Shown here: in pieces, positions 20,926 through 41,206 of the stretch
How the letters are laid out: the number at the start of each line of letters is the position of its first letter
Numbering within the stretch: the stretch's first letter is position 1
Source: Chaetoceros tenuissimus
Taxonomy: Eukaryota; Bacillariophyta; Thalassiosirophyceae; Chaetocerotales; Chaetocerotaceae
Length of the DNA stretch: 64,000 bases
Direction: 5' to 3'
Assembly (NCBI GenBank): GCA_021927905.1
Contig: BLLK01000045.1
Span: forward strand, 1,240,001 to 1,304,000
Notes under the pieces: generated by a model
Told to the model about the DNA's origin: nothing
Seen by the model: the letters and a program-made list of their open reading frames with translations, nothing else
Databases searched by the model: none
Made by a program: the position numbers and the translations under genes

Positions 20926-21059
20926 TTTCTTATTGTTCTAACAGAAAGAAGTTGAAAGGTAGGAACTTATTCTAGTAGTGGAAAATACAACGTAATTGCA
21001 TTAAGTAATGGCAAAATGAAACGTCAGTTGTATTCATGAATGCAAGCATGTAATGAATA

Positions 21060-21073
21060 ACCGGAGGGGGGTC
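21060..21073 (+). repeat. Left 14-bp terminal inverted repeat
   Basis: ACCGGAGGGGGGTC, the exact reverse complement of 39087-39100. A match of this length between two short flanks is unlikely by chance, and both copies sit just outside the first and last genes of the block. Confidence 0.65.
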
Positions 21074-21191
21074 CGTCATGTTGGGTTGGGACTAGTTGGA
21101 AGTTGTGAAGTTGACAGTTCCCCCAAGTGGCACAATACAGGCTGCATACGCAGTACGAGAAGTATTATACAGTGATGAAATAAAGATTAGA

Positions 21192-24100
21192 TTATGTTGT
21201 AATTTTCATAACTTTGTTGTAGTAGTCATTGATAGTGTATACCTCATCAAAGTCATAAAATAGGTCACCAGTTACTTCCCAATCTTTGGCAAAAAATTGC
21301 ATGGAAAAGCTTCCTTCACCTATAGAGAACAGATATTGAAGATCGTCTGATACGTATGTATACTTGTTGGAATTTTGCCTCTTTTTCAAAATAGGTATCA
21401 TTTGATTTCTATCTCCAAACTCAATAACAGTACTATCGGTATCTTCTTCAATGACTTCAATAGAAGTGTGTGGAACATCAAAAATATCTCCTAGAATATT
21501 TGTACATCTCGTCATTTGATGTATACGAGGTCTGATGCGAGCTCTAACTTTGTAAACTGGGAAGAAGTCTTCACTATATGGCGAAAGATAAGTTTTTCCC
21601 GTTTCTAGTTTGATGACAAGGACATGGGTGAGTTCATTATGCTGAAAGTATTGTTCTTCTTGTTTAGATTCATCGTAGAGAGTAATCCTCACGTAGTCAT
21701 CATCTTTTCTTAACACATTGGATGCAGCAATGACATCACTACTGAATAAAAGATTTTCGTACAACGACGCAGAATGTGGTACAAGGAACTTGTGAAATGT
21801 TCCGTCTGTAACGCTTTTTCCCATGGTGTCTACAGTGATACTCTCAAATTTCTCTGTTTCAAATCCAAATTCAGAAAGAAAAGGTAAAATCTTGTCACTC
21901 TCCATTGAAGTTCTGATATGAATATAGTCTTTTGTTTTGTGGGACAAGTCTTCATACGTGAGATATTCTTCATAATTTGCCTGCTGAAGATGTCTGTCCC
22001 AGTTTTCATTTCTGGAGGTTGGATTATATTGGAACATCGTAGGAAACCAAGGGTTGTTGTTTTTGAAGAGAGATACTAATTTCATTCTCTGATCAAGGAT
22101 TGTACGATATCTCTCTTGGTTACGTGTGAAAGTGACATCAATGAAATGTTTAAACTTTGAGTCATATTTTGGATGCAAATGTAATGTGTCAGAAATACAT
22201 GTATCATTGAATGAAACAAGTACTGTTTCCTTTGTTTTGTTCCTTTGAATCTTCGAAAACATTGCATCAAAGCACGGGACAAATTGCATCAACCGATGGA
22301 AAAGAGGTTTTAGGTAGAGACAGTCATATGCATAACCAATCGTGAACAGAAACGCTCTAGATGAATTCCAATTTGCTGTGCATCTATTCTCTTTTAGGAC
22401 GAAGGCATAAATTTTGTAAACTTCAAACAAAAGCTGCGATCTCATGTTGTCTACCATTTTTGCGTACGCCTTCTCAGTGTTTTGTCCTGGCCTAGGCATG
22501 ATAGGTGAGATTTTATCTTGTTCACCAAGGTAAGGCAAAATCTTTTCGTCGAGTTCAAAAAATAAGTCGTCATCAAATTTCAATTGTAATTGAAATAGAG
22601 TCATTGCCTCATCTGATGCGACACTGACGTCATTGTCTTGCGCTAAGTCTTCTATCTCTTGTTGGATAGTTGGACTCTCTTCATCAACTTCGTCACCATT
22701 CTCCTCTTCTTGATCTTCATTGTCGAAGGAATTCGTAGCAGTTTCGTCTTGTGTGTTGAGGTATTCATCATCGTCTTTGTCTTCATTAGCAATAGTTGCT
22801 TTTTCTAGAGGTGAAGTTTCTTCTTGTATAGAAGATTCATCATCATCAGGTTGGACATAAGACACATTTGTTCTACTTCTCAAAGATCGTCTTGCCGGTT
22901 GTGTGTTGTCTTCTTGAGTTTCATTCTGAGTTACATCTGTAGTCGTTTCATGGAGCTCAAGTTCATTTTGTTGTTTATTTGGTTCTGTCTTCTTTCTCCT
23001 GTAAAGATAAAAGAAAATGTGAGAATGTTGAGTTTGAGATGGGACATTTCCAAAATTTTTATTGAAAAAAAATTTTGGAAGGTTCATAACCTATCTTACT
23101 TTGTTGAAGGAGTAACAGGATTCTTATTTTCGTTTCTATTGAAGAAGATTGTGTGAGCAACTTGCAAATAGAAAGTACACAGGAGATTTAAATACAAAAC
23201 TTACTTCCTTTTTTCTGCAGCCTCTGTACGCAATGGGAACGAACATGTTAATCTGTCTTTGTGTCTGTTTATGTACGCGACAACATCGCCAAAATTAGAT
23301 GAAATTATTCCAGGATCCCCTTTTACATGTCGATGGAACCGCAGTTGCGTGGACTCTATAGTAACATTGTCCTTGTGAATTGTATTGAACCAGTCTAACA
23401 ATATTTTGATCGGATCTAGAGTTTGGTCTTTGTCAGTATTGTTAAAAATCTGCTGAATGAAATTTTTTGGGTCAAGAGACAAGGTTTTATTTCCAAGGAC
23501 TATCTCTTGTTTCAACATGCACGAATCAAGGTATGCATCATTATTTTCCAATCGACGTTGATATATCTCTTTATTCACATCTCCTTTTGACAGTTCAGCA
23601 TTCAACAATAAATTCATTATTGGAAGAATCTGTACATGGATGTTTTCAATTGTTAATACAAAAACAATATATCTCAAGTATGAGAAAAGAACCCTATCAG
23701 CTACTACGACGGACCCAATTTTTGGTGCCAGTAGAACAGGTACGTTCGTTTTTTCTTTTTCTGTTTCCTTTTTCTTTGTCTGGTTTTTCTTTTTCTGGTT
23801 TTTCTTGTCTTCGTTTGAATCTTCTTCTTGCTGAGTAAGACCTTCTCTACAGTGAAGAGAGTGGATAATTGAATCTTCGTAAGCATCATTTCCATACTTA
23901 TTAGCTGGATGTGTAAGTTTTGAATCAAGGTCTTTAGTGTCAACAAGTTTGTAGAGAAGTAGCAATTGTTTCTCAATATTGCATCGAAATATGTATCGCA
24001 AGATCCAGTTTGTTTGATGTTGGGCTGTATCAGTAAAGTATGTATTGAAATACTTGAGTAGGAAGTCAGTAGCATCATACGCAAGCGACTGAATCAGCCC

Positions 24101-25666
24101 AAGCCTAACATTGATTTGAACTGTTAAATTTCTGTAAAATAAGTTTCAACGAGAAAGAGATTGTCTAGAATACATACCGATATGGGGTGAGAGTAGAAGA
24201 TTCTTGCATGTATGTCATTGCCGGAAGTATTTCTTTTGTCATTTTCGGGGAGAATATAAAAAGTCGCCCGAGGGAAAATAACATAGCACACTGTATTGGA
24301 AGTTTTATGTTGTCTTTGCTTCCATATTTCATATTCAAGTCGTGATGTTTCAATGCATTCTTGATATGAGACACAGTCAATGCTTGGAAAAGAACTGGGT
24401 ACCAAATTAAATTGTCAAAAGCCTGTAAAGAAGAAACATTTTGGAGATGTTAGTATTTGGGAGTATGTATGCCTTTTTCAATTTCATAATTGTTCTACGT
24501 ACTCCAGGATAGCTTTTTTTTATATCTTCTCTACCAGTGAAATGAGTGGTTAGCTCTTTCTGCCCCATTTTAGTACGATGAAGAGCCGAGAGACACCAGT
24601 TTGCAAACTGGTCATTGTAAAAAAACTGAACCAAAAAGGTTTGAAGAATTGGTGTTAATGCTGCATCCTTGAAAATTTTTCCACTGTGTGTTGCATATAG
24701 TAAGCATGTTTTGTTGAAACCACTTTTTTTTTTACTCGGTTCGTCACAATTCAATACAGAAAGATGATTGTGGACAGTAGCTAGACTGTTTGTAGCAAAC
24801 AAATTGTAGCAATCATATAGGGAATGTCCTACTGTTTGTTGTTTCATCTGCATAATGTGTCCAGAATAATTCTGCGTGATCAACATCAACTCACGAAGTT
24901 GGTAATGTTGCACACGTACATCTTCTCTAAAGAAAGATACATTGATGAAAACTTCTTGATCATTGTTCATAATCTGATTTTTGAAGTTTTCTTTAGAAGC
25001 CAAAGACGACATGAGTTTCCAGAGTGACTTGGTTCTGTGAGAACCGTCAGTGAATCCTAAGAAGTAGTGTCCCTGAGAGAGATATGTAAGAAAACATCTA
25101 CAAGCTGTGATAAAAATTGCTTTGTGTTTACTTACATCTTCTTGATTTTCGGTTTTAAGTAGTTTTTGCATTGACAATTTGAGTTTTTGAAGAGTATCAA
25201 TATCTTTGAATTCATTGCTATATGCCATGAGTTTTTGAAGAGCTGATTTAGTTTGTGATTTGTTCCACTGGACCAATCCAAACATTTCCTCTGCACGATT
25301 AGTAGAGTCAACTTCAAAAAGATTGAATGCAACATTTCCTGTTCCACTCGGCTCTGTTTTGAGTTCAGTCATAAGAATTGCGTCAAACTCAGTAGACACA
25401 ATACCCTTGCCATCCACAATCCATTTGCTAAATGCATCATGAAGGTTGGAAAAGGAGACACCATCACTAGAATGGTGATGGTTTACATTAGGCTGCAAGT
25501 ATGTCTTGTTGTCTACAGAAGGAAGTAAACCAAGGAGAATAGGGATCTTTACTTTGATTCGCACAGTTTCAAAGATGTCGCCAAAAGTGTGATTAACACT
25601 GATGCTAGTTGGAGTAACAGATCTTACGCTGCTTGGAGATTGTACTTGAGTTTCAGTAGTCATCAT
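21192..25666 (-). CDS. Unknown 1359-aa protein of the mobile element, five exons
   Basis: Exons 25666-25136, 25072-24503, 24422-24178, 24131-23205 and 22998-21192 join in frame. Donors are GTAAGT, GTACGT, GTATGT and GTAAGT, and acceptors are CTCAG, TTACAG, TTACAG and TTACAG. Intron 1 (63 nt) is a multiple of three without a stop, so it could also be retained. Intron 2 has a TACTAAC branch site. Intron 3 is only 46 nt. Intron 4 (206 nt) contains one copy of the element's hairpin. No known domain is recognised. Visible features are a Lys/Glu-rich stretch near residues 553-575 and a long acidic Glu/Asp/Gln region near 770-885 that includes a basic RRSLRSR patch. It diverges from the 857-aa gene. 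It may be a structural or replication accessory protein, but no function is claimed. Confidence 0.65.
23048..23092. repeat. Element hairpin, copy A (intron)
   Basis: An arm TTCCAAAATTTTT pairs with AAAATTTTGGAA and is followed by GGTTCATAACCT, itself a small palindrome. It lies in intron 4 of the 1359-aa gene. Confidence 0.7.
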
Positions 25667-26134
25667 GTAGAGTTTATTTGTGTTATGGTTATATAATTCC
25701 CTTCGGAAAACTATGACAGTAGAATAAATTGAATGATGTGTTTGTAAAAGTTGACAGTTGTATATGAGACGGGATTAAGTGTTTTAAGAGCTATTTTATT
25801 CTTCTTTTTCTGTGTTTCCCACAATCACTTCATTTTTGTAGCAAATCAAAAACGTTCATTCTTTATAGTTTGTCGTCTAACGCATTCTCTAACATATTAT
25901 ATTCTCGAACAATAACAAGTTATTTCACAGCTATAATGTTTTTGTTTCCAACGCACGAGAAATCTTTTGTGTTGTGTGCGTTGGAGAAAGTATAAAACTT
26001 TTTTATTTGGATGAGCGAGCGTTGAGCAACTCCGAGGGAAATGAGGGAAAAAAACGACGATTCTAACTTTTTTGGTGCACTCATATTTTATCAAAAAGTA
26101 TAATTCGTTTTGTCAATCTGTCAACATATCAATC
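25667..26134. promoter_or_regulatory. Divergent promoter of the mobile element with a 9-bp-stem hairpin
   Basis: 468 nt between the two large divergent element genes. An inverted repeat CCAACGCAC (25948-25956) and GTGCGTTGG (25976-25984) encloses a 19-nt loop. It could be an operator for both genes or part of a replication origin. Otherwise the region is AT-rich without an ORF. Confidence 0.45.
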
Positions 26135-28885
26135 ATGAAAGTTTCTGGATCCCATGTTAAGTCTCTTCTTGAGCAACTTGAAACCATTGTTAAGTTTCAG
26201 TTTAAGGTAAGTTGATTTGTCTTTGTTAATCATCCATCATATGTGAAAGTTCAAAACTAAACAAAATTTAAATTCAAAGACTTTTGAAGCGGAAGGTTTT
26301 GAACTTGATCATGTCTCTGCCAAAAAAGTGAAGGACTTTGGGAAACATTCCTATGTCATGGATTGTACTTCCAACATTCGTGAAGCTGAGTTTCTCAGTT
26401 CAAGAAAGGACCTTTTGGTGAAGCTTCTTTCCCATCTCGATGATGTGCATCTTGACCAGCTTATGAGTAGTCTTGTCAAGAACTTTGCTTCAGTGAGCAT
26501 CGCCCCTGTAGCAAATTGGGTTGGATTCGATTCTCTTGAAAGTATCCAGAGTCTTGTTGCTTCTGCAAACAACCAGGAGTCTAAGGTGAAGGTTCTTCAT
26601 CAACTTCTATGTGTCGATTCACTTCCTGATTTCAAGACTTGCGAAGACTTTGCAAAGTCAAGAAAAAAAGACACTGAATACAAGCTGCTTACTGCTCCTA
26701 TTACCGAAATGATGAAGGGATTTGCAAAACAAGGAGCAGATTCTCTTGCTAGCATTACAAAGAATACTATCATGCATTGTCAGGATCGTGCCTTTGCAAA
26801 ATTAGCAACCAACTTTGCAGAGTTTGTGCGCAAGAATCTATTTCTTTGTTTTAGAGAGATTGATCTGAAGACTATCATCAAAACTCTTGAAAACGATGAA
26901 ATTTCACTTCCAAGTGTTTCAACCATGAAAAGAGGAGAAGCTCTCAAGTTTTATTGTTCGTTGTTGTCCCTCTTCAAGAAATTCTTAGTTGTTGATGAGT
27001 CCAGTTCCTTTTGGAATCTCCAAGATGCGTTTGAAGACAATGTTGTGTTTTTCGATGTACAGATTTCAGAGTAAGTACATTCATAGGTTACAAACCCTTC
27101 AAAAAAATTTTTTGAATAATAATTTTTGAAGGTTCATAACCTGTTGATCTCATTTCTAACTTATTTCATTTAAGTGGAAACGTGAACAATTTGGCAACAA
27201 TCAGAAAAGTTGGTACTGTTTCAGATTCAATGGACAAAGCAACTGAAGAGAGTGCAGAAGATAGAGGTGAGTATGGTGTAGATGGTGCATTTTCTAATGG
27301 GTTCACTTTGGGAAAGACCAAGTTTGAGGAAAGAATTGAGGAGGAGCATCGTTTCCGTGAAGAGAAAAGAGCAAAAAGTGTATTTACAGCTTCCGAGAGT
27401 CCTTCTTCGTCAGATAACACATGTATTGGTTCTCTTTCTGAGGCAGAGATTATTGCCAAGTTTCTTCGCAGCCAAGGAATGGTGTGCAATGCCAATACAA
27501 TTTACAAACAACAAGGCTTAACTTTTGTTGGTCCTGTCGGTATAGCACCCAAGACTGTGGATGGCATCCCTTGGCTTGCTTTACCATCAGATTCTACTCA
27601 ACTTCCAGCAGTGCAAGGTTCCACGCCCGCTCAAGATGAAGAGACCAGTGAGCATCAAGCAGCAAGTCAGGACGCATCAGCAACCAACAAGTCTCAATGT
27701 TCCAGTCAACATCAGGCGTCAAGTCAGTCTCAAGCATCTAGAGACCCTTCAGCTTTCGGTCAGTCTCAATCAACTAGTCAGTCCCAAGCAACCAGTCAGT
27801 CACAATCATTTGCTTCATCCCAAACATCTTCTCAGAAGTCTCCTTCGTCGAAATCTTTTTTTGGCGGACAAACTACAAGCAAGAAGACAACGGCAACACC
27901 AAAGAGCTCACCAAAGGATGTTCCATCTTTCTTTGATAGTCCCAAGAAGTCTTCTGGAGCTAAAAAAAAGGTGAACAGTAAACCATTTTCCTTTAGCAAC
28001 TTGCGTCAGTCACCACTCAAGAAAGAAAAGAACAGGAATCATAAGTATCTAGTTGTGAAGAGTTCTAGGCCAATTCCAAATTATGCAAAATCAAAGTTTC
28101 ATATTATTGTTTCTGTCAATGCAATGAACGATCTTGCCAAAGGAGATGACAAGTATCTTTTTGAGTTTCGTTCAACTATCATGAACAAATGTATGGCTAT
28201 TGGATGTGTTCTTTTTGACTGCTCTGAGATGAAGCTTGAATTTGGATCCAACAACAGAACTACTGAGAAAATTCTTACTTCTGAGATGTTATCTATGAAG
28301 ATCCGCCAAAATCCAGGGTCCATGAACAATTCATTTGTAATTTTTGATTCTTATTCCAAGTATCAATCTATCTACAACATTGAATTGGATTCTGAAAATG
28401 AAGATGAAGCTGAGAAGGAAGCAAAGGAAATTGTTGACGAATTCCATAAAATTGTGAAATCTCCGGATTGGTGGACTTCTTACAAAATTGCTTGTTACTG
28501 GCAGTATGTAGCAGGAGATGACACTGAATGTTGCCATGTCTTGGAGGAAATCTGTAATAAGTCAGCTGCCTTGGCGAAGAAAGATAAAGACGAAGAAGTC
28601 ACTTTCTCTCAGTTGAAGAACGGGTTTGATTCTGTATTCCGTGCTGCAAAGGGATCAAGTGGACTGTACAAAATTTTGATTGAAGATGATAATCAGAGTC
28701 TGTCAAGAGATATTGGCAATAACAAAGCCAGAACTAGTACTGGTCTTAAACTTGACGAGATGCTCATTGATGGGGATATTGGCTACTTCTCTAAGACCAT
28801 TTTTGGAGAGTACAAGAGAGACTATTTGTCTTATCTATTTGTGGACCCAGATAACTCTGATAGAAACTTGGGCGTTTTTTTTTAA
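26135..28885 (+). CDS. Unknown 857-aa protein of the mobile element with SQ cluster
   Basis: Exons 26135-26206, 26280-27070 and 27175-28885. Introns of 73 and 104 nt have GTAAGT donors; the second holds hairpin copy B. The N-terminal 285 residues are helical and unlike anything I recognise. Residues about 443-513 are Ser/Gln-rich with 12 SQ dipeptides in about 70 residues, as in SQ/TQ cluster domains phosphorylated by ATM/ATR kinases. A basic Ser/Lys stretch follows, then a compact mixed domain (about 585-855) with many aromatic residues, for example PDWWTSYKIACYWQYVAG. The stop at 28883-28885 is 64 nt before the RepHel ATG. A weak intron (28874-28929) could instead extend this protein by 36 residues, overlapping the RepHel start in another frame. 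Function unknown; a replication accessory protein is possible. Confidence 0.6.
27085..27142. repeat. Element hairpin, copy B (intron)
   Basis: The fullest copy. Its ends are inverted relatives AGGTTACAAACCCTTCAAAA and TTTTTGAAGGTTCATAACCT around an AT-rich centre. It lies in intron 2 of the 857-aa gene. Confidence 0.8.
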
Positions 28886-28949
28886 ATCTAGAAATCTAAT
28901 TTTCTCACATTTTCATTTTCTTTCAATAGAATTCAAAGATAATCTTAGA

Positions 28950-31900
28950 ATGCGACTTCTTCAAGAATCCAAACAATCTAAAGAATGGAGAAATCAATGT
29001 GCAACTACATCTCATCAGTTTATTGCTTTGGAAAGTGTGAATTATAATGCAAGGCCTGCTTTGAAAAGATTATGGGAGTCAAGATATAGAAGCGATGAAG
29101 TATTCTACGAAGAAGTGCTGAATATGTTTCTCGATTTTGCATCGTTTGGAGTGAGGAAATATTTTGACAACATTCACGAAGATCCATTCTTTGCAATGTC
29201 TGTTCATGACTGTAAGAAGCGTGGAAAAATCATGAAAGAAGAATTGAAACAGTTCAAGAATAAAGATCCTTTTGTTGATATTAGCAAAGAAACTAGGAAG
29301 CTCTTTTGTTCTTCCAACAAAAAACAGCAAGATGAAATCTATGAAACAATTTTGTTTGAAGCTAAAAACATGGCTTTGTCAGTTGGGATTTGTAAAGTGT
29401 GCAACAGCAAGTTTACGTTTGAAAGGCAGCATGTATGGAGCAGGTGTCCAAAGAAATGCATGGACTGTAAAGAGCAAAACTTATCTACAGAAGATATTGA
29501 TCATTGTTTTCCATTGTGGTACAAGAACAAAGTAGCGCAATATGAATTACCAGACGAATTAAAAGATTTGACTTTGACAGAGAAACTATTGATACAACTG
29601 GAATCTTTTCTTATTCCATGTGTGCACATGGGCAAAGGCAAATTTGGTAGGTAATTGTTTAAAAACTTTCTTTTTATTATTTTCCACTCTAATAACAGTC
29701 TACTTATACCATGTACAGGTTTATGTGCTCATTCTGTTTTCTTTGCAAGAGATAATTCAGATCTTTGTACGAATCTCCCTAGATTGAAATTAGACGTTAT
29801 TGATGTTAAACGACTCATCGTTGATAGAGAAAACGCAGAAGAATATACATACAAATGCTTCAAAGTTCGCCGTAAGAAAGTCTTAGAAGCTCTTCGCTGG
29901 CTCAAGAAATACAACGTTCACTACAAAGATATAAACATTGTAGAAGATAACTTGAATTGGATGCAAGATAAAGAAGAAGAGTTGTTTACAGATTTCGAGG
30001 AGAATATTGTTCTCACTGAAAAGTACAATACTGGAACCGTTGCTAAAGAGCAGACATCAAATCCAAATGCAACAGAAACTGTGGAAATGTGTGGAATTGC
30101 AGCAGATAGATCTGACCATTTGTTTTCTCAAGAAGCAAGAGAAACTATGAATGTATTGAAAACAGCAGTTGAAAATGCAAAAGAGAAGGGAAGAGAATGC
30201 AGCGAAACAATTCTCTGGCCACAAACTTCTGATGTAGCTACAGACGAATTCAATGGAAATTTCCTTTTTGCTAAAGCGTACCCATGGCTGTTTCCTGGAG
30301 GAGTTGGTGATTTATCAAAGGAAATACAAGGAGATAGGACAAAGGCTATTGCTTGGACAAAGTTGCTTTTGCAATGGAAAGATGGCCGTTTTCAAAAAGA
30401 TCCTTGTTTTACATTTCATGCCTTGAATTATATACAAAGACATTTGAATAATGGTAGTTCCATTTCATTGTATCATTCAATGTTCTCAAACAATACCACT
30501 GTAGAGAAAATCAAAGAAGAAATTGAAAATGGCAACTTCTTTACTGTTGGACGCATACAAAATTTTGCCAGCCAAAGGATTCGAGGATGTGATGGTTGGT
30601 GGAGAGCTAGGAAGCATGAACTTGACAGCTGGATAGCACATCATCTACAAAAAGGCCACGGTCCTCCAACTTTGTTCATGACTTTTTCCTGTGCTGAGTA
30701 TTGGTGGAAGGATCTAAGACATTATCTCATTTCAATTATTGAAGACACAACAGATAGTCATTACGTCGATATCTTGCTCAATGGAACTGAAGAAGAACAA
30801 ATGAAAGCACAATCATACTTAGTAGATGAATACACAGCTAGCGTCCAAGTGTTCTTTCAGCATAGACTCAACAATTGGCTTGAAACTATTGGAAGGAAAG
30901 TCTTCAACATCAAGCATTACTTCCTACGTTTCGAATTTGCTAAAGGAAGAGGTCAAATTCATGCACACATGGTAGCAATAACCTCTGATGTTTCTTTGCT
31001 CACAGAATTTCATGATAAATATGTAAGCAAGAGCAATGCGCAACTTGGAGCAGATGCTTTAGCGGAGTATGCTCGAAATGTATTATCACTGACTGAAGAG
31101 TTCACAGAATTTGAGGAAACAGAAATCAATGCAAAACCACATCCGTTAGGAAGTCTCTATTCTGAATCTTCAAATCACCAACACGATCTTTGTCTTCTTT
31201 GCAAAAAAGTGCACATGCATGACTGTACTGATTATTGTCTGTCTTGTATCTCAAAGTAAGTGTTACAATTTCACATTTTATAGTCTCCAAAATTTTTTTT
31301 TAATAATAATTTTGGAGGGTTCGTAACCTATGCTTCATGTCTTGCTAAACTTATTTTTTTTTCATAGGAAAGACAACGTTGGACGTGTTTGTAGGATGAA
31401 TGCTGGGCAAGAGACAATACCTGGTGATCCTAAGAGCACTCCTGGTTTTGAATTACGTGAACATGATGAGATTGAGAAGAATTATGAAAAGGGAATTCAT
31501 GTGTTGAAATTAAAAAGAAACCACAATAGACTCAAACAAACATCAACAACCATGTTGAATTCCTGGCGAGCTAACTGTGATGTCTCCATTATTGTATATG
31601 CTACAGATCCAGTCAATATTGTTCCATCTGATATTGCTCAAATAAGTGGTTACATCATGTCGTACTGCACAAAAGGGAATTTGTCATATCAGGAAGAAAG
31701 AAGTTCCATTGCTTCTATTATTACGAGGTTTGACTATGAATATTTTCGTTCTGAAAAATCAAATCTTGTTGCAATGACAAGGAAAGCTTTGAACTCTCTT
31801 TTAACAAGTCGAGTTGTTTCAAAACCAGAAGCATGTGTCGAACTTCTTGATTTAGATTTGTATTGGTGTACGGAAAGTGCTAAATACATCAACTTGACAG

Positions 31901-34413
31901 GCCTGAAATACTTGCTAAAAGATGATACAAAGAGCAAGCACGACCCAATTCAAATGTACAAACATCGACCTGCTGACTGCCATAGTCTTAGTTTTGTAGA
32001 ATACATGGCGATCCTAGAAAACACGAAGAAGATTCAGAACAGAGACAAAAATGTTCTTAGGCAATTGGACAATAAATGCAAAGATAGGTTCATACATCCT
32101 GTGGGCTTCAATTGTGCACCTTGCTTTCCGCCAAATCTCCATTATGCCATTACAACACTTGTTCTTCATAAGCCATGGCATGATAAAAAAAGACTCGATT
32201 TTGAGAGAGACAGAACTATATGTGCTAAACATGAGTTCAATGAGTTTTTGACGAGTGAAAACTGTCCTCAATCTGTTAAACTTCAATTTTGTATAGCTAA
32301 AGCCAACTTTGAAATGAAGATGTTCAAAAGAAAGTTGGATGGAAAGGGTCACTCCAATGTGGATTTGGATGAGTTAAATGAAGATCAAAGTGATTTCTAT
32401 AACTTAGTGTCCAATTCAAGATTGTTCCGTTTTGATTTTGACGGATTCTACAAAGGTGAAGACGGATATGATTTTCAAAAGTTACATTATGATTTTGACT
32501 CGAATTTGGAGTCTGGAAAGACATGGCTCAAAGAAACAAAGGACGAATGGGATACTGCCGAATTGCTTCAAAAAAACATTCACATTAATTCAAAAACACA
32601 AAGACCATACTCTATTGAAGATACCTTCAACAATGAAGCTCAAGAGGAAATTGTCTTTGCAGTTTTATCAAAATTAAAGGAATGGATTGAATTTCCTGAT
32701 AATGATGCATCAACATTTGAGCCTTTAGTTCTCACAATTCGAGGAGCTGGAGGCACAGGAAAAAGCTTTCTCATTAGAGTTCTGGTTAATGCAATTGAAA
32801 GAATGTTTGATGTCAAAGTTACAGCTACTTCTGCTCCCACAGGGTGCGCCGCTTATAACATAGACGGAAAAACGATTCATAGTTTGCTTGGTATTGATCC
32901 TTATGACTCCACTAAGGAACTATCGCCGAAGCAAAAAGACCGTGTACATGCACTACTCCACTCTATGATTATGTTGATCATTGATGAAAGAAGTATGATG
33001 AGTCTTGATCTTCTCAATGCAGTTGATAGAAATTGCTCGACCTTTGCACATGGAACAGGAAATAAAAATTCATACTTTGGTGGGATACCTATTGTATTAA
33101 TGTTTGGTGACGATTACCAATTACCACCAGTTGCTGCTCAAGGCGCATTTGATTTTTTCGACAAAAAGGGATACAAAAATGATCAGCTAAAAGGCACCAA
33201 TCTTCAAGGAATGCAGGTTCTAAATTTTTGTGTTCAACAAGTGAAATCTTTAACACAGATTCAAAGAATTGAAGACGGTGAAGATTTGCTTCGAGATGTC
33301 ACTACTGCCTTGAGAACTACAAATGGACTAACACAGGAGCAAGCACGACAAATCTGCCAATACAATCTAGACAATCCCAATATTTCTGAGGAAAGACAAA
33401 ACGAAATTAAAGAAAAAGCTTTATTTGTTTTCACCACAAAAGAAGAAGTTGCTAGACATAATGAAAGTGAATTGCGGAAAATAGTGAACAAAGACAATCC
33501 TTTAATGGAATTTACATTTGACTTGCTCCCAACGGAGAGATCTACCAAATCACATGGAATAAAAAAACATTTTCAACTCAAAACTCTCATTGAGGCAAGA
33601 GTGGCACTATGCAGAGGCGCTAGGGTGTCCCTAAATAGAAACGTGTGGCAGCGAAAAGGTCTCTTCAATGGAGCCATTGGGACAGTAATCGATATCAGAT
33701 TTGATATGGGACAAAACCCGCTGAATGGAGACTTACCAGTTTACATTGTCATAGATTTTGAAGATTACATTGGGCCAGCTTGGGATAAAGACAATCCAAA
33801 ATATGTCCCTATACCAGTTGCAATTCAATATGAAGATAGTAAAATTGCTACGTATGGCTGTTGCATGATACAGTATTATCCACTAGATGTTGCTTTTGCA
33901 AGAACTCTTCACAAAGTACAAGGTTTAAACGTTGGAGGAAACAATCCAATACGTCTAATGACATTTCATCCAGGGTCTACAACATTTGAAGGAAATAACC
34001 CAGGTCTAGCATATACTGGTATCAGTAGAGCAACATCATTAGGTCGAGGCAATGTAAATCTATCTGCTTTGTACTTTTGTTGTGAAACTCAACAATCGTT
34101 ATATGAACGTCTTCGGGATGTGGTTCATAAAAGAAAACGAGTTACAAAATCTAAGTCTAACAAAAGGCAAAAGATACTTTCTCAAGCTAGCGATTCTTCC
34201 GAAGTTTTTCATGAACCAGAGCTATCAGTAGAAACTTATGAAAAGGTAAAACGAAGAAACATGTGGACTCAATATCTCGATAAAAGAGAGACAAAAACTC
34301 ATTTAAAAATTTCTGAACTCGAGAAACAAGATGTGTTAGGGTGGTATCACAACTTTAAAACGATGACATATGAAGATCTTCAGACAGTAATAAATTTTCA
34401 TAAACATTCTTAG
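28950..34413 (+). CDS. Helitron RepHel transposase (HUH nuclease plus Pif1-like helicase)
   Basis: Exons 28950-29646, 29719-31255 and 31368-34413 (introns 72 and 112 nt; the second carries hairpin C) give 1759 aa. The Helitron-like N domain includes FAKAYPWLFPGG and a Trp-rich segment (ELDSWIAHH). The HUH motif is GQIHAHMVAI (His647-x-His649). A CxxC-type finger (CLLCKKVHMHDC) follows. The catalytic two-tyrosine motif is GYIMSYCTKG (Tyr840 and Tyr844). The SF1B helicase has Walker A GAGGTGKS (about 1204), Walker B MLIIDERS, FGDDYQLPP, and the C-terminal motif FARTLHKVQGLNVGG. HUH-Y2 enzymes nick and join one strand, and the helicase unwinds it during rolling-circle transposition. All key residues are present and the frame is whole, so the enzyme may be active. 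A slightly longer N-terminus via splicing from 28930 cannot be excluded. Confidence 0.9.
31285..31329. repeat. Element hairpin, copy C (intron)
   Basis: CTCCAAAATTTTT pairs with AATTTTGGAG and ends GGGTTCGTAACCT. It lies in intron 2 of the RepHel gene. Confidence 0.7.
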
Positions 34414-34444
34414 GTTACAACTTTACTAACTTTTCCAATATGTA

Positions 34445-35254
34445 TTAATTTCTACTAATATTCGGTATTTCCCCCATCATTTCAAGAACGTATCTGTTTA
34501 TGAGCTTCTGTGCACTCAAATCGGAAAACGGATTCTGTTCTAAATATTGTGATGGGGTGACACCAATTTCATTCGTTTTCGCCAGTGACTTCAAACCTTG
34601 GTTTTTAAATATTTCGTAGATGTCTTCTGTGTTTGGAGTACAAGATGCACATGCTCGATGTAAAGAAAATTCATCTGTGTCTCCATTGAGGCTTGTCACC
34701 CAACGCGAGATTGCATCATAGTCATTGTAACGCCCATTCCTATTTCGTGTAAAAGGAGATCTTTTCATCAACTCAGATCCATCAAATACATGTATACCAA
34801 TTGACGGATTTCCAATACTGCATATTAACAATTTTTCACAATAGAAGAAAGCATCACCAAAAATATGTGTGCAGCTAAGTGGAATGAATATTGACCTCAG
34901 ACGTATGCAGGCTGCAAATGCAAAACTTCCAATTACTTCAAGATTCTCTGAAAACACAACTGATCTCAATCTCTTGCAATACATAAAGGCAGATCTTCTA
35001 ATATGTTTCACGGTAGGCATAATAACTATTTTCAAATTCTCGCATTTATAAAAAGACTTGAAAGGAATATCTGATACTCCTGGCAAAACAATAATCACAC
35101 GCCAAGATTTTCTTTCAGTTTCACCATAAACAAGTGGTTTATCGTTCTTCCAATCGTAAATCACATCTCCATTATAAACAAAGGTTATCTTCCCATGGTA
35201 CATTTGCACTCCAGGTTTAAGCTGCCGCAATTCATCAAACTCTATCCACGACAT
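34445..35254 (-). CDS. BspA-type leucine-rich-repeat protein with ankyrin-like tail
   Basis: 269 aa. A conserved N-terminal lead (VQMYHGKITFVYNGDVIYDW, then W-R-V-I-I-V-L-PGV) is followed by four LRR_5/BspA repeats (about 57-150) with the AF-x-x-C-x-x-L-(R/K)-S-(I/V) pattern. The C-terminal 100 residues hold an ankyrin-like unit (FSLHRACASCTPNTEDIYE, then GVTPSQYLEQNPF). This architecture is a large family in Chaetoceros-type diatoms, of unknown function, probably protein-binding. It is convergent with RepHel, 31 nt away. It is either cargo of the element or a host gene captured in it; the tail resembles that of the nucleotidyltransferase-like gene in the same block. Confidence 0.75.
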   Translation of the reverse strand: MSWIEFDELRQLKPGVQMYHGKITFVYNGDVIYDWKNDKPLVYGETERKSWRVIIVLPGVSDIPFKSFYKCENLKIVIMPTVKHIRRSAFMYCKRLRSVVFSENLEVIGSFAFAACIRLRSIFIPLSCTHIFGDAFFYCEKLLICSIGNPSIGIHVFDGSELMKRSPFTRNRNGRYNDYDAISRWVTSLNGDTDEFSLHRACASCTPNTEDIYEIFKNQGLKSLAKTNEIGVTPSQYLEQNPFSDLSAQKLINRYVLEMMGEIPNISRN

Positions 35255-35872
35255 CTTTCATGTGTACCTTCTTGCAATTTGTGCTTGCACATTCAAAAGT
35301 ATCTTTGTAAATTTGAGTGTCAGCTCTGATCTGAACTGTTGTTCACCCGGAACTAAAGGGGTGAAAAACTTTGTCCCCACTCTGTCTACGTAGTAGTACA
35401 CACGACTTACACCACAGGTTTAGTCGAGTCAATTCTTCTTCATTCCTATGCAAATGTAATTCCTATGTGTACTTCAGTCATACTTCAATCATTGCACATA
35501 TCTTTTCAAACAATAGACTTTCATCGCTACAAGTCTAGAATCCACAAGAAAACAAACACACAGCAATCAACTAATTTCAGGTTAGGTAAGTAGATCAAAC
35601 CTTCTCAATGACACAACAAGTATAAAGTCAATTGGGGCAACGATGAAGGCCTTGCAAGCCATTCCAAATTCGTCGTTGTAATCAACCCAGGACCAATACA
35701 GTGCATAGTTGTTGAATTTCAAAAAACAAAGAGTATATAGTCAATTGGGGCAACGATGAAGGCCTTGCAAGCCATTATAAATTCGTCGTTGTAATCAACC
35801 CAGGACCAATACAGTGCATACTTGTTTCATAATAAAATTCTAACGTTTACATGTTTGCATATCTATAGTATC
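35255..35872. other. Divergent intergenic region with tandem repeats
   Basis: 618 nt between the LRR gene and the Cys-rich gene. The right half is taken up by two 87-bp direct repeats (listed separately). The left half contains no gene or strong repeat. Confidence 0.5.
35621..35820 (+). repeat. Two 87-bp direct repeats, each able to form a hairpin
   Basis: Copies at 35621-35707 and 35734-35820 differ at about three positions (113-bp period). Each contains CAACGATGAA and TTCGTCGTTG, able to pair around an inner GGC...GCC stem, plus a CCAAT box (GGACCAAT). The second copy ends 52 nt before the next ATG. This could be a duplicated promoter or Rep-binding iterons. Confidence 0.75.
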
Positions 35873-37249
35873 ATGCCAGGCTCGAAGAATAAAAAGATTA
35901 AAGCTGCAAAGAAACTTAAAGCGGCAAATAAGCAAGTAAATACAGCCTTATCGACACTCTTGAGTGGTAGAAACTGTGTCAATTGTGGCAAAAAGCTCAA
36001 TACAAAGGTCTCTGCTTACGCTGCAAACATCCAAACACTTCCTTCAAGTGAAATGGATATTGGGTACTGCATCACTTGTAAAAGCGATGCAGTGCAGACG
36101 AGAAAACTGCAGAGAGCTATCCAGAATTTTCCAGTGCTTGTGAATATAATGGAAACTTTGCCTTCAATCACTAGATTTAAGTTTGTTTTGAATTTGGAGT
36201 CTCCTCTTCTTGAATTGTTAGGCCTCAAAACAGAGTACGTTATTCAGTATGGAATAGTTGATGCTATTGCTTCTGAATTGTCTGTTGAAGGGTGTCATTT
36301 CCTCAACAATATGGACACTGTTGCTAATAGATTCCCTGGCCGGACTTTTACTCATGATGAAGGAGTTGATTTTTCTATCATCATCTTCAAACTCCCAGAC
36401 AATAAAACAAGATTCGCAGCTCTTGGTTCCATTCATCTGCCTTCTTCTGTCCTCATAGAGGAAGCGAAGAGTAGATGTCTGGAGTTCAACAACTCTGGAC
36501 ATAGATCTGGAGCTTCCACTGGCTTTGTGTTCTCTGATACCACCTCGCATTCGTTAAGTGTTGTCACAAGAAAAGACTCCACCGAGTTTGTAGCTTCTCC
36601 AAATTCAGTCAACAGCACTGTAGTCTATGACAACACTGGTGCTCTACGAGCTGGAAAAAAACCACCTGGATCAATCATTTCTCGTGGAATCTACAACGAT
36701 ATGAAATGCATGCATCGTCTCCGTTCCAAGGAGAAAGCCAAGCGAGCTAACTTGTATCCGAGCTATAGAACCACACTTTTAGCTGAAATGAAGTCTAGAA
36801 TTATGTTTTTGGGTGTTGCACAAGAACTAGGTCTTCTTTCACAAAACCCATTTGCAAAGCTTTCTGAGTTCTGCAAAGCATTTCCAAAATTCTCTGCGGA
36901 AAAAATCCTTCTTGAATATGCTTGTAGCACAGGTGAAATGTCTAATTACAATGCCCTACCTGCACATACAGATGGAAATACATCTCATGAAGTTGAGACT
37001 CTATGTTACAACGGTAGAGTTGCTGCAAATGCTGACAATGAAAATGCAGATGCTATCGTTAAGAATTGGTTGCCAGCTTTCCTTTATTGCTGTAATGCAG
37101 GAGTGCTTTTCAAAATTAAAATGGGAAAACACATCATGCATTGTAACTTAACCAGAATCATGCATGTTGCGGATAAATCGAGAAACGATGCAAATTACTC
37201 CAGAGCATCTGGACCATGCGGGCCTCATCTTGATAATATTAAATTCTAA
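35873..37249 (+). CDS. Unknown Cys-ribbon protein of the mobile element
   Basis: 458 aa from the first real ATG (MPGSKNKKIKAAKK). A basic N-terminal stretch is followed by a probable zinc ribbon (CVNCGKK, then GYCITCKSD, about 36-80). The middle is mixed alpha/beta with no family I recognise. The C-terminal third has an His-x-Asp pair (LPAHTDGNTSHEVE) and, about 65 residues on, MHCNLTRIMHVADKSRN. This spacing is reminiscent of 2-oxoglutarate oxygenases, but the match is too weak to call. The promoter carries the duplicated 87-bp repeats. It converges with the nucleotidyltransferase-like gene across hairpin D. Nothing indicates truncation. Confidence 0.55.
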   Translation: MPGSKNKKIKAAKKLKAANKQVNTALSTLLSGRNCVNCGKKLNTKVSAYAANIQTLPSSEMDIGYCITCKSDAVQTRKLQRAIQNFPVLVNIMETLPSITRFKFVLNLESPLLELLGLKTEYVIQYGIVDAIASELSVEGCHFLNNMDTVANRFPGRTFTHDEGVDFSIIIFKLPDNKTRFAALGSIHLPSSVLIEEAKSRCLEFNNSGHRSGASTGFVFSDTTSHSLSVVTRKDSTEFVASPNSVNSTVVYDNTGALRAGKKPPGSIISRGIYNDMKCMHRLRSKEKAKRANLYPSYRTTLLAEMKSRIMFLGVAQELGLLSQNPFAKLSEFCKAFPKFSAEKILLEYACSTGEMSNYNALPAHTDGNTSHEVETLCYNGRVAANADNENADAIVKNWLPAFLYCCNAGVLFKIKMGKHIMHCNLTRIMHVADKSRNDANYSRASGPCGPHLDNIKF

Positions 37250-37273
37250 ACTTCTAATAACTTATTATCTAAT

Positions 37274-37330
37274 AGGTTAAAAACCTTTTAAAATTTTTAT
37301 TCAAAAATTTTTTTTGAAAGATCATAACCT
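37274..37330. repeat. Element hairpin, copy D (between convergent genes)
   Basis: AGGTTAAAAACCTTTTAAAA pairs imperfectly with TTTTTTTTGAAAGATCATAACCT-type sequence at its other end. It sits in the 98-nt gap between two convergent genes, where it may also act in 3'-end formation. Confidence 0.7.
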
Positions 37331-37347
37331 ATTCTTCCAAGAAGACT

Positions 37348-38490
37348 CTACATAGACATGTACTCTTCCATCATCTTTACGACCAACCAATTGTTACAAT
37401 CAATTGCATTTCTATTAGAAGAACCAAGAATGTACTCTACAGGAGTCAGCATCAACTCGTCTTTTACAAAAGCGTTCAAATATCCATGCATGGATACAAG
37501 ATCTTTAAATCTGGCAAAGTCATCTACTTCTCCATTAATACAAACAAAATGGAAAATATTGTTTCCATTTCCATGGAAAGTTAACTCTACCTTTGACCCA
37601 TTCTTGGAGAAAGAGAAAGAAAAGCTTGTATCGTCTTCAATGTTAGATTCATTGTTAGTATCTCCATTAGTAGATTCATTGGTAGAAACTGCATTGTAGA
37701 TATCATCTTCTTCGTCTTCCGAAGACCTCTGTAACAATTCCACATGGAAGTTATCTCTAATGATATTTTCTTTATTATCTAACTGTAACATTGTGTAAAC
37801 ACGGGTGAAGAGTTTTGTCTGCACAACCTTCTGCACGTCTTCATCCCATTTTAACTTCAACATGTGCTCTGCTGATAGTTTCAATGGTACCTTCATCTGA
37901 GAAGACTTATTCATTACCCTCATAAGAGAAGATGCTGGAGTATGGTACATAACAACTTTCAATGTTCTTGAACTTACAAACTGATCAAAGTGGTTGGTAA
38001 ACACAAAGCTACCAACCTCACCTGTCTCTACGTTAATCGGGAACCCAATTTGACAACAATTTATATCAAAAAAATTGATTAGGTGTTGAAGACAACAACA
38101 GTTTGTAACTACCACAATATTAACTTCAACGCTAGAGTTTCCGTCAATCATCATTTCGGATCCAGACTCATCCTTCAAAGGAACCTTGTAGCTTTTTAGA
38201 ATATCGTAGTTTGTATCATGTACTCCATCTTCATCCATGTTTGTACTACGGTTTAAGATAAACACATCTATATCATTGAATGCATATTTTCGGAAAAACA
38301 TGTGTGTAGCAAAGGAACCTGCAACATAGCAATGATTTAGTTCATAACCAAAAGATTCTTCTAACTCCTCTACTTCCAAACTAACAGTGAGACATACAGC
38401 CTCACAGATATCTGTATAATTGTACATTTTGTATTTAATGGTTGTAATGAAAAAGCTAACGATTACAATATGCATCGACAACAGATTCAT
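37348..38490 (-). CDS. Nucleotidyltransferase-fold protein with ankyrin-like tail
   Basis: 380 aa from the first ATG; an internal ATG at 38427 (MYNYTDICEAV) is an alternative that removes a hydrophobic stretch. The segment YVAGSFATHMFF followed by NDIDVFI (Gly58-Ser59 and Asp73-x-Asp75) is the GS...DxD signature of the Pol-beta-like nucleotidyltransferase superfamily. The third acidic residue may be in SSVEVNIVVV (Glu or Asp on the next strand). The middle is helical with an acidic Asn/Ser/Glu linker. The last 70 residues (NIFHFVCINGEVDDF, then LMLTPVEYILG) resemble the ankyrin-like tail of the LRR gene in this block. Such enzymes add nucleotides to RNA, proteins or small molecules; the target is unknown. 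The linker resembles disordered acidic spacers elsewhere in the block. Confidence 0.6.
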   Translation of the reverse strand: MNLLSMHIVIVSFFITTIKYKMYNYTDICEAVCLTVSLEVEELEESFGYELNHCYVAGSFATHMFFRKYAFNDIDVFILNRSTNMDEDGVHDTNYDILKSYKVPLKDESGSEMMIDGNSSVEVNIVVVTNCCCLQHLINFFDINCCQIGFPINVETGEVGSFVFTNHFDQFVSSRTLKVVMYHTPASSLMRVMNKSSQMKVPLKLSAEHMLKLKWDEDVQKVVQTKLFTRVYTMLQLDNKENIIRDNFHVELLQRSSEDEEDDIYNAVSTNESTNGDTNNESNIEDDTSFSFSFSKNGSKVELTFHGNGNNIFHFVCINGEVDDFARFKDLVSMHGYLNAFVKDELMLTPVEYILGSSNRNAIDCNNWLVVKMMEEYMSM

Positions 38491-39319
38491 ACACTGGTCA
38501 TTTATATGTACAATGAAAATATTATAATGAATTATTCTAATTAAAATATACCTTCAACTAACATATTACAATTTTCCTACACAATATTCAAATAAGCGTT
38601 TAATCACAAATAACAACCTATACTTTTCATATGCCAAAACTGTGCCTATGTACTTCTACGTAGAAACTAAATCTAATCCCGCTAATTTTTTCATTCGTGA
38701 TGTCATCTACCGTTGAAGGCAACCGTTGACAATACAAGAACCACAACACCCTCAGTCTTGTCCTTCTTACGATTAATCTCAAATTTTTCTGTTACAACAT
38801 TTCTGTTCAGACAAAAAACAGTCCTCAACGGTTCATAAAAATGTCATTTGTTTCTTTTATCAAACAAAACCCCCTTTTGATGCATGTCAAAAAGTTTCGA
38901 TACCTACATAAACTTGTACTCTTCCGTGTCAACCGTCTAATTGACCTATAAATTTTTTTTTTTGAAAAAACTCAGGATTGGAAGCTTAAGTATCATAAAA
39001 TATCTTCATTACTTAAGACTTTTTATGATCCAAATTCTTTGACGACGAGCTATATATACTAGAATATGCCTCCTGGCCGGTCTATCGACCCCCCTCCGGT
39101 ATCATTAAAACGCCTAAATTGACGGTTTGAACTAGAACATCACGTCCCGGTACATACTATACGTACGCAATATCAATCAAAAGAACAATTTTTTCATGGA
39201 ACACGGAACAACGCATTCCTATTCTATTGCTAATGAAGAGACATATGTTTTGATACAATACTTTATATTAATAATTCATTGTACCTAGAATTGACAAGCT
39301 GTCGATAAATACTGCAAGG
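38491..39319. other. Right edge of the mobile block and promoter of the RING gene
   Basis: 829 nt without a convincing ORF. It includes a T-run (38952-38963), two interleaved inverted repeats (CTTAAGTA at 38985-38992 with TACTTAAG at 39010-39017; ATCATAAAA at 38992-39000 with TTTTATGAT at 39021-39029), a small GGTC-TATC-GACC hairpin next to the right terminal repeat, and about 220 nt of host promoter. Confidence 0.5.
39087..39100 (-). repeat. Right 14-bp terminal inverted repeat
   Basis: GACCCCCCTCCGGT, the exact reverse complement of 21060-21073. It marks the proposed right edge of the Helitron-type element. Confidence 0.65.
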
Positions 39320-41206
39320 ATGAGAAAAAGTCCAGTGACAAGCGGTGGTATAAGACGCATCTTGGCTCTTTTGCTTTTCTTGAGATTTCCAAACCAAGTT
39401 TCTGCTTACATCTACAATCATGTAACAGGATGGTATTATCACTCTATACCTGCTGTATTCGGAACTGAAATCAGATACGATGACATAGTCCTCATGAATC
39501 TTTTTCTTCCTCCCTTGGAATTAGACTGGAACCTTTGCAATATAACAGATTTGACCAATGAAGATTCTTTCCAAGAAGAAAAAGGTGAAGACAATGTATC
39601 AGATACAAATCAATCATATAGAGGTTTCATACGATCTCTATACTCTCAAGATTACAGCGATATGAAAAATTTACCATCGAAACCATTGGATTTCGAGGTG
39701 AAAGGAATCACACGTAGAGCACGTGGTGATGATGATAAGAGAAAGGAAACAGACTTTGAAATATTCCGCAGGTCCATTGGATTACTTGTGACACGGGGAG
39801 ATTGTTCTTTCCAAGAAAAGGCAATCAATGCTGAGAAATTGAATGAATATTTCCTGGAGAATCTGAAGGAGGCGTACAACATAACTGAAGACGGATCATT
39901 CATTGAACCGGAGTATCCTGTGATTAAGTACCTTATCGTGGTCAACAATGTTGATAATTCTCCCTTTGGGATGTCGAAAGATGATGAAAAGAAAGATGTG
40001 AATATTGGGTTACTGGGTATTGGAGAAACTTCAGGAAATGATCTCAAAAGTTCCATGGCCAAAAGAGCCGTTCTGACTGGTGATATCTATCATGCATATC
40101 TAGATGTAAATGCTTTTTTGCCTCTTGATTCATCCTTTAGAGATGGAAGTGAGTGGCTCTACCCAATGAGTGCAGATGGCAAAGTGCTACATAGAGGCAT
40201 CACTATGGCGCGTTTGATGATGGTTTTCATTCTTGTGATTATAATGTTTCCAATCTTGAGATTGTTGCTGTATTGTGTACTTTCTCAGGGGTCCTTTGAA
40301 TGGAGGCGGAATGAAAATGGTCGCATCAATGGAATTAGATGGAGACGAATTAGAAATGCTCAAGTGCCTATGAATTGGGGAGACTTCGGTGCCAGTCTTA
40401 TTGGAAACCTCCGAGGTGAAAGAAATACAGAAATACATACCCTTACTGCGGAAGAAGTTCAAAGTTTACCGCTCATCAAATTCGGCGTTGACGACCTGAA
40501 TGTCATCATCAACCAGTATTATGATAGCGCAGATAGACCCGATACAGCTACTTCCTTGATTGTCGATGAATGTGATGAAGGCAAAGCTATAAATGATGAT
40601 ACGGAACAACTTCAAGAATCGGATGATTCCAATGAGGAGGGAGTTGAAGGTACAAAGTCCAGCAATGATTTGAATTCTGAGGATAATGTCCAAAATCTTG
40701 ACAATAACTTATCCATGCAAGTTCTAGAAAATTCACAAGATGACAAGAATTCAGTAGCTGAAACTGTTGATATTGAAAAAGTCCCTCTCGATGATTCAAT
40801 TACGGATGATATAGAGTCCAAATCTTTGAAGTCGACAAGTAAAGAAGAAAATGATGTGGAAATGAATCATAAAGTCGATTTTGTCCAAGCGGCATTTAAT
40901 TCTTGTGAATCATGTTCAATCTGTATATGCGAGTATGATCATGGAGAAGAATTGCGTCTTCTGCCAGTTTGCGGTCATATATTCCACACTGAATGCATAG
41001 TCCCTTGGTTAACGGAGAAAAGAAATACTTGTCCTTTATGTCAACAAAAAGTAGAAATCATTAATAAGGCTGAAAATGATGATTGTGAGTCCACTGTAGG
41101 TGCACAGGCAGATGAAGGCTCATTTTTACCAAGGCGAAGTGATATGATGAATTTTTACCATCGAAGAATCGCTTCAGCACACCAAAATCGCAACGACAAT
41201 TCTTAA
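39320..41206 (+). CDS. PA-TM-RING E3 ubiquitin ligase
   Basis: 628 aa. A signal peptide (hydrophobic core about residues 14-29, ending VSA) leads into a luminal protease-associated-like region (about 140-290, with LLVTRGDCSFQEKAINAEK, the usual PA signature, and KYLIVVNNVD). One membrane helix follows (about 294-321). The cytosolic part contains a long acidic linker and a C3H2C3 RING-H2 finger near 532-574 (CSICICEYDHGEE, CGHIFHTEC, CPLC). The order SP-PA-TM-RING is that of the RNF13/RMR family, endosomal or vacuolar membrane ligases that ubiquitinate trafficking partners. Its promoter abuts the right terminal repeat of the mobile block. Confidence 0.88.
   Translation: MRKSPVTSGGIRRILALLLFLRFPNQVSAYIYNHVTGWYYHSIPAVFGTEIRYDDIVLMNLFLPPLELDWNLCNITDLTNEDSFQEEKGEDNVSDTNQSYRGFIRSLYSQDYSDMKNLPSKPLDFEVKGITRRARGDDDKRKETDFEIFRRSIGLLVTRGDCSFQEKAINAEKLNEYFLENLKEAYNITEDGSFIEPEYPVIKYLIVVNNVDNSPFGMSKDDEKKDVNIGLLGIGETSGNDLKSSMAKRAVLTGDIYHAYLDVNAFLPLDSSFRDGSEWLYPMSADGKVLHRGITMARLMMVFILVIIMFPILRLLLYCVLSQGSFEWRRNENGRINGIRWRRIRNAQVPMNWGDFGASLIGNLRGERNTEIHTLTAEEVQSLPLIKFGVDDLNVIINQYYDSADRPDTATSLIVDECDEGKAINDDTEQLQESDDSNEEGVEGTKSSNDLNSEDNVQNLDNNLSMQVLENSQDDKNSVAETVDIEKVPLDDSITDDIESKSLKSTSKEENDVEMNHKVDFVQAAFNSCESCSICICEYDHGEELRLLPVCGHIFHTECIVPWLTEKRNTCPLCQQKVEIINKAENDDCESTVGAQADEGSFLPRRSDMMNFYHRRIASAHQNRNDNS

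Follow-up and report, generated by a model that had tools for sequence, protein, structure and literature searches.

Rolling-circle transposons of the Helitron2 and Helentron kind carry a 5' repeat at the tip of the element or within a few base pairs of it, and a 3' repeat that is internal and followed by a hairpin (PMC3627910, PMC4067079, PMC5148889). The definition of Helitron2 followed here comes from PMC3627910 (Bao and Jurka 2013), PMC5148889 and PMC4067079. Helitrons of maize reach up to 39 kb and those of fungi 14 kb (PMC6431247), some Helentrons encode OTU and viral-tegument-like deubiquitinases (PMC9741609), and RPA, OTU and SET proteins occur in other such elements (PMC4067079). Neither large size alone nor accessory proteins as such are new among Helitrons. 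The capture of full-length host genes by Helitrons is termed exceptionally rare (PMC6431247), and detection programs relied solely on Helitron1 end features (PMC3627910). Here we describe an element of the diatom Chaetoceros tenuissimus (assembly GCA_021927905.1; 41.03 Mb in 68 contigs) located in a window, i.e., the whole analysed stretch of 64,000 nucleotides, corresponding to positions 1,240,001 to 1,304,000 of contig BLLK01000045.1 (C32:1240001-1304000). Judged by its ends, its target and the domains of its RepHel protein, the segment 21016-39100 is very probably a recently active, autonomous-looking transposon of the Helitron2 kind, deletion derivatives of which are also present in the genome.

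The 14-bp repeat ACCGGAGGGGGGTC occurs exactly at 21060-21073 (+) and 39087-39100 (-). With up to three mismatches it has three matches in the window, the two perfect ones being the two ends, while shuffled sequences gave a mean of 0.47 (2 of 100 shuffles reached three). Genome-wide, 15 matches with at most one mismatch were found and 14 of these are exact; the reversed control pattern had 4. The single mismatched one, at C48:1942993, has surroundings without blastn similarity to the window. The 14 exact repeats mark the ends of nine copies, some of them partial: five two-ended copies (C13, 2.5 kb; C32, the window; C48, 17.5 kb; C54, 12 kb; C54, 18.1 kb), two copies on C19 and C27 that are already internal to the element where the contig starts (first base), and two 3' parts on C56, of which one runs off the contig and the other breaks off at C56:6868. 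Leaving out C13, copies are 99.3-99.96% identical to the window in aligned blocks longer than 1 kb; the lower values are mostly due to gaps, but one C56 copy has 16 mismatches as well as 7 gap positions in 6.5 kb. The C13 copy matches the window with 86% identity at its 5' end and with 97% in 77 bp of its 3' end. In the 12-kb C54 copy approximately 28992-35072 is missing, and the C48 copy lacks 28760-29370, so that its RepHel start is gone.

Since copy identity stops at 39100 on the right and at 21016, beyond the 14-mer, on the left, we delimit the element by these two points. Nearly identical copies are also what a recent segmental duplication of a chromosomal gene block would leave, the 14-mers being incidental to it. 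Yet the exact 14-mers stand at copy ends in 14 of 14 cases, the flanks of the five two-ended copies match solely their own places, and there is a diverged family whose ends follow the same plan, so that we give such a duplication a negligible probability. The first-pass annotation had proposed one giant element spanning 21060..39100, bracketed by a perfect 14-bp inverted repeat at which copies would end. The perfect repeat and the single element are both upheld, the latter by near-identical copies with unrelated flanks and common end points; the right boundary is likewise correct for the element and its copies, but the left limit is 21016, 44 bp outside the repeat. The same annotation rightly ascribed asymmetric terminal repeats of the Helitron2 type to the element, one being at the tip and the other inset. 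As a separate observation, the copy that stops at C56:6868 (L020:3469) has an intact 3' end and breaks off at window position 27533, after which the contig continues without window similarity; it is possibly a 5'-truncated insertion.

Because the 5' repeat of Helitron2 and Helentron elements lies at the tip and the 3' repeat is internal, we take the right end as 5' and the left end as 3'; RepHel therefore runs against the polarity of the element. At the 5' tip a hairpin GGTC-GATA-GACC is predicted, in which the last four nucleotides of the repeat, GGTC, pair with GACC just inside, and a second, sister family is predicted to fold a hairpin at the same place (GGTGA-CTTGC-TCACC). The stem TATTCAT...ATGAATA was found in all four 3' ends that were folded (the window, sister copy L030, and the diverged relatives L035 and L036), immediately past the inner repeat as the Helitron2 definition asks. 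All five two-ended copies are inserted between T and T, and none shows a target-site duplication. The 5' flank ends in T in seven of seven copies (AT in six of the seven before ACCGG), and the 3' flank after TTTCAT begins with T in five of seven and with A in two; a T at either end could consequently belong to the element, the preceding T at the 5' end being either a target or an element base. The Helitron1 signature (5'-TC, CTRR-3' and insertion between A and T) is not that of these ends, which read ACCGG...TTTCAT with insertion at T|T.

Perfect 14-bp inverted repeats, an 18-kb size and several genes would also suit a cut-and-paste terminal inverted repeat transposon, or a Polinton/virus-like element, that had captured a RepHel gene. 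We rejected both because the ends are asymmetric (right repeat at the tip, left repeat inset by 44 bp), because no target duplication was seen and because of the domain scan: among the ten element proteins scanned against Pfam, none contained a DDE transposase, integrase, PolB/DNA polymerase, capsid or packaging ATPase domain. RepHel and the end hairpins are moreover common to both families, which makes such an origin very unlikely.

The RepHel gene reads as one spliced gene without internal stop over 1,759 amino acids (aa). Pfam domains DUF6570, Helitron_like_N (7.1e-15) and PIF1 (2.1e-21) were detected in the protein. Residues HAH (647-649), YIMSY (840-844), GAGGTGKS (at 1204) and later helicase residues are present, which we take to be the HUH, YxxxY, Walker A and subsequent helicase motifs. 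No endonuclease domain, the mark of a Helentron in the strict sense, had a Pfam match in the helicase open reading frame (ORF) up to E 1. Against solved structures, the helicase half matches PIF1 helicases, and Helraiser at 3.1e-5; the Rep half has no match up to E 0.01. Four comparisons of exons between copies were possible: relative to the window, the 18.1-kb C54 copy differs by no base in exon 1 and by one in exon 3, and the C48 copy by one base in exon 2 and one in exon 3. Compared with a diverged relic on C58, the helicase has a pN/pS (non-synonymous over synonymous differences) of 0.26 over 120 codons (Fisher p 1.5e-4). Six peptide patterns from the helicase ORF had no match in viral contigs.

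Table 1. Features of the element in window coordinates, except for the last row
Feature	Position	Strand	Details
Whole element	21016..39100	-	18,085 bp; limits of copy identity and divergent flanks
5' terminus	39100	-	39101 if the preceding T belongs to the element
3' terminus	21016	-	
5' asymmetric terminal inverted repeat	39087..39100	-	at the tip
3' asymmetric terminal inverted repeat	21060..21073	+	inset 44 bp from the 3' terminus
3' terminal tail with hairpin TATTCAT...ATGAATA	21016..21059	-	predicted fold
p1	21192..24001	-	at least two ORF pieces, ~23201-24001 and ~21192-23000, with a hairpin-bearing intron between
p2	24407..25666	-	419 aa; counterpart in sister family
p3-p4 gene	26358..28885	+	two ORFs with a hairpin-bearing intron between; counterpart in sister family
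RepHel	28950..34413	+	putative exons 28950-29646, 29719-31255, 31368-34413; 1,759 aa
LRR gene (leucine-rich repeat, BspA-type)	34445..35254	-	269 aa; Pfam LRR_5 3.2e-18
p9	35873..37249	+	458 aa; open in 6 copies
nt	37348..38490	-	380 aa; invariant AGSFAT...NDIDVF motif; counterpart in sister family
AT-rich hairpin with AGGTTNNNAACCT palindrome	23049..23094	.	in p1 intron
AT-rich hairpin with two GGTTNNNAACC palindromes	27085..27144	.	in p3-p4 intron
AT-rich hairpin with GGTTNNNAACC palindrome	31286..31331	.	in RepHel intron 31256-31367
AT-rich hairpin	37271..37332	.	between the convergent p9 and nt genes
RCC1-like ORF of the C13 relative	L009:2599-3741	-	WD40_RLD 1.1e-43

The asymmetric repeats, the hairpins at the ends, T|T insertion without duplication and a spliced RepHel without endonuclease are our reasons for assigning the element to Helitron2. 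Several observations weigh against this assignment. The predicted 3' hairpins have weak energies (-2.1 to -3.1 kcal/mol); the 5' tip, as drawn, starts with A, or with T should the preceding base belong to it, where PMC3627910 gives a preference for T; and the inner repeat is inset by 44 bp at the 3' end, farther than the 20-30 bp of that source. The intron and exon limits of RepHel, p3-p4 and p1 were derived from reading frame and splice-site motifs and have no transcript basis. An empty allele, which the first-pass annotation named as possible support, was not found, a genome search with five joined flank pairs returning only the ten flank halves. Finally, gene p2 is open in the window copy only and broken in all four other aligned copies, with one base missing at 24724; it appears split in five other copies. 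The p2 alignment of the sister family passes through the region of 24724 in the frame of the window copy, and an assembly error may be behind the one-base difference.

With Helitron2 as described in PMC3627910 the element shares asymmetric repeats (8-15 bp there), a 5' hairpin involving the repeat, a 3' hairpin after the inner repeat, a RepHel, and insertion after T's without target duplication, as in Helitron-1N1_CRe. Besides its longer inset, it differs in its 18 kb and approximately seven genes, where the text of PMC4067079 gives a single Rep/Helicase ORF. FoHeli elements of Fusarium oxysporum (PMC5148889) resemble it in their asymmetric repeats of 12-16 bp, in an inner repeat 38-51 bp from the end (FoHeli1/2), in the insertion of FoHeli1/2 between TNAT and T, in copies at contig borders and in the reversed RepHel of FoHeli4/5; FoHelis measure ~5-11 kb, whereas here both RepHel orientations go with a common multi-gene set. 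The Helentron, HINE and DINE-1 elements of PMC4067079 have repeats of 12-15 bp in a sub-terminal position (38-60 bp from the 3' end), a TT target and, for mite HINEs, a palindrome near the 3' end; the 44-bp inset falls within this range as within that of FoHeli1/2. They differ from the window element, in which no endonuclease, OTU or RPA domain was detected. Proto-Helentron-Pi of Phytophthora infestans (same paper) is likewise from a stramenopile, measures ~14 kb and encodes a Rep/Helicase without endonuclease together with several other ORFs. Its ends are Helitron1-like (5' TT, 3' CTAG, A|T insertion), unlike those described here, and a SET domain is present in one of its ORFs; no SET domain was found in the window element.

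The sister family was recovered with the helicase ORF, which matched 18 places in the genome: five are 100% identical and belong to the element's own family, two of them truncated at contig ends; five match over the full length at 55%; and eight are partial or distant matches, including the C58 relic at 88%. Sister elements end in CTGGAGGGGGGTGAC ... GTCACCCCCCTCCAG plus a tail of 46 nucleotides that has the same hairpin stem. A pattern modelled on the 3' end of this family occurs at 10 places (reversed control, 0). The window 5' end used as query gave 27 matches, of which 7 are ends of its own family, 10 are diverged 5' ends, and 10 correspond to an internal palindrome, being its reverse arm. 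In both lists of diverged ends, two of the ten belong to further diverged members, L035 and L036. Pairing the ends by position yielded sister copies of ~15.1-15.2 kb on C3, C33 and C34 and of ~7.6 kb on C27 and C32. The gene order, assembled from C33 (L047, L034) and C34 (L046), is from 5' to 3' nt, a 609-aa ORF and two shorter ORFs at the position of p1 (reverse), p2 (reverse), p3/p4 and RepHel; the p2 homologue is found on C33 and C3, while C34 lacks that stretch. Amino acid identities to the window element are 36% for nt, 27% for p2, 38-44% for p3, 37% for p4, 62% for Rep and 55% for the helicase. Similarity between p1 and the 609-aa ORF is weak (26% over 118 positions, E 2e-5 in a five-sequence comparison), and a genome-wide search with p1 found only six copies of the window element's own family. 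A helicase selection estimate for L030 against L035 (ratio 2.46) was discarded because the reading frame of L030 was not set; in the other between-family comparisons, synonymous divergence (dS) is saturated or above 2. Two further observations concern the sister family: a ~90-bp tandem repeat follows its RepHel, and within C33:1011319-1018080 two sister nt genes, together with 5' ends near 1012852 and 1016547, are close neighbours in opposite orientation.

Starting from its 5' terminus, the window element has nt in forward orientation, then p9 and LRR, then RepHel and p4-p3 in reverse, and finally p2 and p1 forward up to the 3' terminus. The block p1-p2-p3/p4-RepHel thus lies between the termini in opposite directions in the two families. 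Reversed RepHel genes are known in other Helitron2 elements (PMC3627910, PMC5148889), and those of Fusarium were attributed to self-insertion followed by loss of the inner ends (PMC5148889). The inversion seen here might stem, for example, from such a self-insertion. Within 20001-40000, remnants of inner termini were sought with the repeat core and with the tail motif, allowing two mismatches, and only the known ends were found.

Several accessory genes are old and conserved, since they are common to a family that is 55% identical in the helicase. The residues of the nt motif AGSFAT...NDIDVF are unchanged in all four aligned members. This motif may be nucleotidyltransferase-like; all Pfam matches of nt are below the curated cut-off. 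The DG-HR motif of p2 could be read as ParB/DGQHR-like, a reading that no search supported. A search of solved structures with nt, p2, p9 and p1 gave nothing below E 0.04; structures predicted for nt (four sequences) and p2 (two sequences) had a mean predicted local distance difference test score (pLDDT) of 36 and were not used for fold searches. NCBIfam gave only sub-cutoff matches for the eight proteins scanned, Rfam no family within 19000-42000, and the Pfam scan no OTU, RPA, SET or viral-tegument-like deubiquitinase domain. The main ORF of p1, whose exon ends and 5' limit are uncertain, is open in all five other copies holding it, as is nt in the five that hold it. Gene p9 is open in five of five other copies and has two diverged relics, on C58 and C44; relative to the C58 relic its pN/pS is 0.32 over 160 codons, with fewer non-synonymous than synonymous differences (Fisher p 1.6e-5). 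The LRR gene is open in four of five other copies, the exception being the 12-kb C54 copy, where it is cut by the deletion. It has at least 144 matches in the genome (143 of 519 candidates scored), 5 of which lie within element copies, the best other match being 50% identical; it was therefore probably captured from a large host gene family. At least 139 BspA-type LRR matches lie outside element copies, many of them on C14, C16, C27, C43 and C59. Between LRR and p9, positions 35613-35837 hold a tandem duplication of 112 bp with copies ~90% alike. The C13 relative (L009:2001-4482) is a two-ended element of 2.5 kb without RepHel; its RCC1-like ORF of 381 aa is apparently a captured gene.

These last genes illustrate a different reading of the accessory content, in which a Helitron2 carries mostly passive cargo, i.e., captured host genes and debris. 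The resemblance of LRR to a large host family, the disruption of p2 in all four other aligned copies and the RCC1-like gene of the C13 relative are in keeping with it, while the presence of nt, p2 and p3/p4 in both families, the preserved nt motif and the pN/pS of p9 are at odds with it. On balance we regard mostly passive cargo as possible, though rather unlikely.

Three of the four AT-rich hairpins lie within putative introns (p1, p3-p4 and RepHel). A genome search with two of them gave at least 20 matches at no fewer than 11 places, all inside element copies among the matches listed; a looser pattern gave 28 matches, 22 inside copies and 6 outside (reversed control, 9). In the window, GGTTNNNAACC occurs five times, at 23081, 27086, 27131, 31318 and 37275; 200 mononucleotide shuffles of the window gave 0.75 on average and at most 4. 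Among 13 other loci scanned it is found in four (sister loci L046, L047 and L030, and the C13 relative L009) and has no match in nine, including the diverged relatives L035 and L036. In the sister family its locations include the p3-p4 intron, where the AT-rich core differs. This palindrome could be a protein-binding site and is the least explained part of the element. A role of the hairpins as 3' transcription-end signals was considered and dropped for three of the four because these lie within the putative introns; the hairpin between the convergent p9 and nt genes may have such a role.

As to gene content, the first-pass annotation had listed six genes, an intact RepHel, a conserved accessory set and a hairpin family confined to the element. 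Multiple genes are present, seven by our count rather than six; RepHel has Rep and PIF1 domains in a spliced ORF open throughout; and within the window the four hairpins and all five GGTTNNNAACC palindromes do lie in the element. Conservation of the accessory set extends to nt, p2, p3/p4 and, weakly, p1, but the sister loci examined showed neither LRR nor p9.

If the element moves as a Helitron2, RepHel would nick at the 5' tip (39100) and unwind one strand across the 18 kb until stopped at the 3' hairpin near 21016, and the freed strand would be pasted into T-rich DNA. The genes common to the sister family may aid transposition or persistence. That nt, p2, p3/p4, p1 and the intronic GGTTNNNAACC palindromes together form a dedicated DNA-binding or replication/maintenance module, by which so large an element could persist and move, is a speculative idea that we consider improbable.

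We found no description of this element in the open-access literature on Helitrons, diatoms and Chaetoceros, judged by titles and the beginnings of abstracts, and the word "Helitron" is absent from the main text of the C. tenuissimus genome paper (PMC8613185). Programs built on Helitron1 ends could miss elements like this one. A single small genome offers a well-bounded, recently moved multi-gene Helitron2 and a diverged second family, which makes testable the roles of the extra genes, the flips of the RepHel block relative to the ends and the capture of whole host genes. Should the module described above prove real, these would be rolling-circle transposons whose gene complement resembles that of a plasmid or virus, instead of a RepHel plus cargo.

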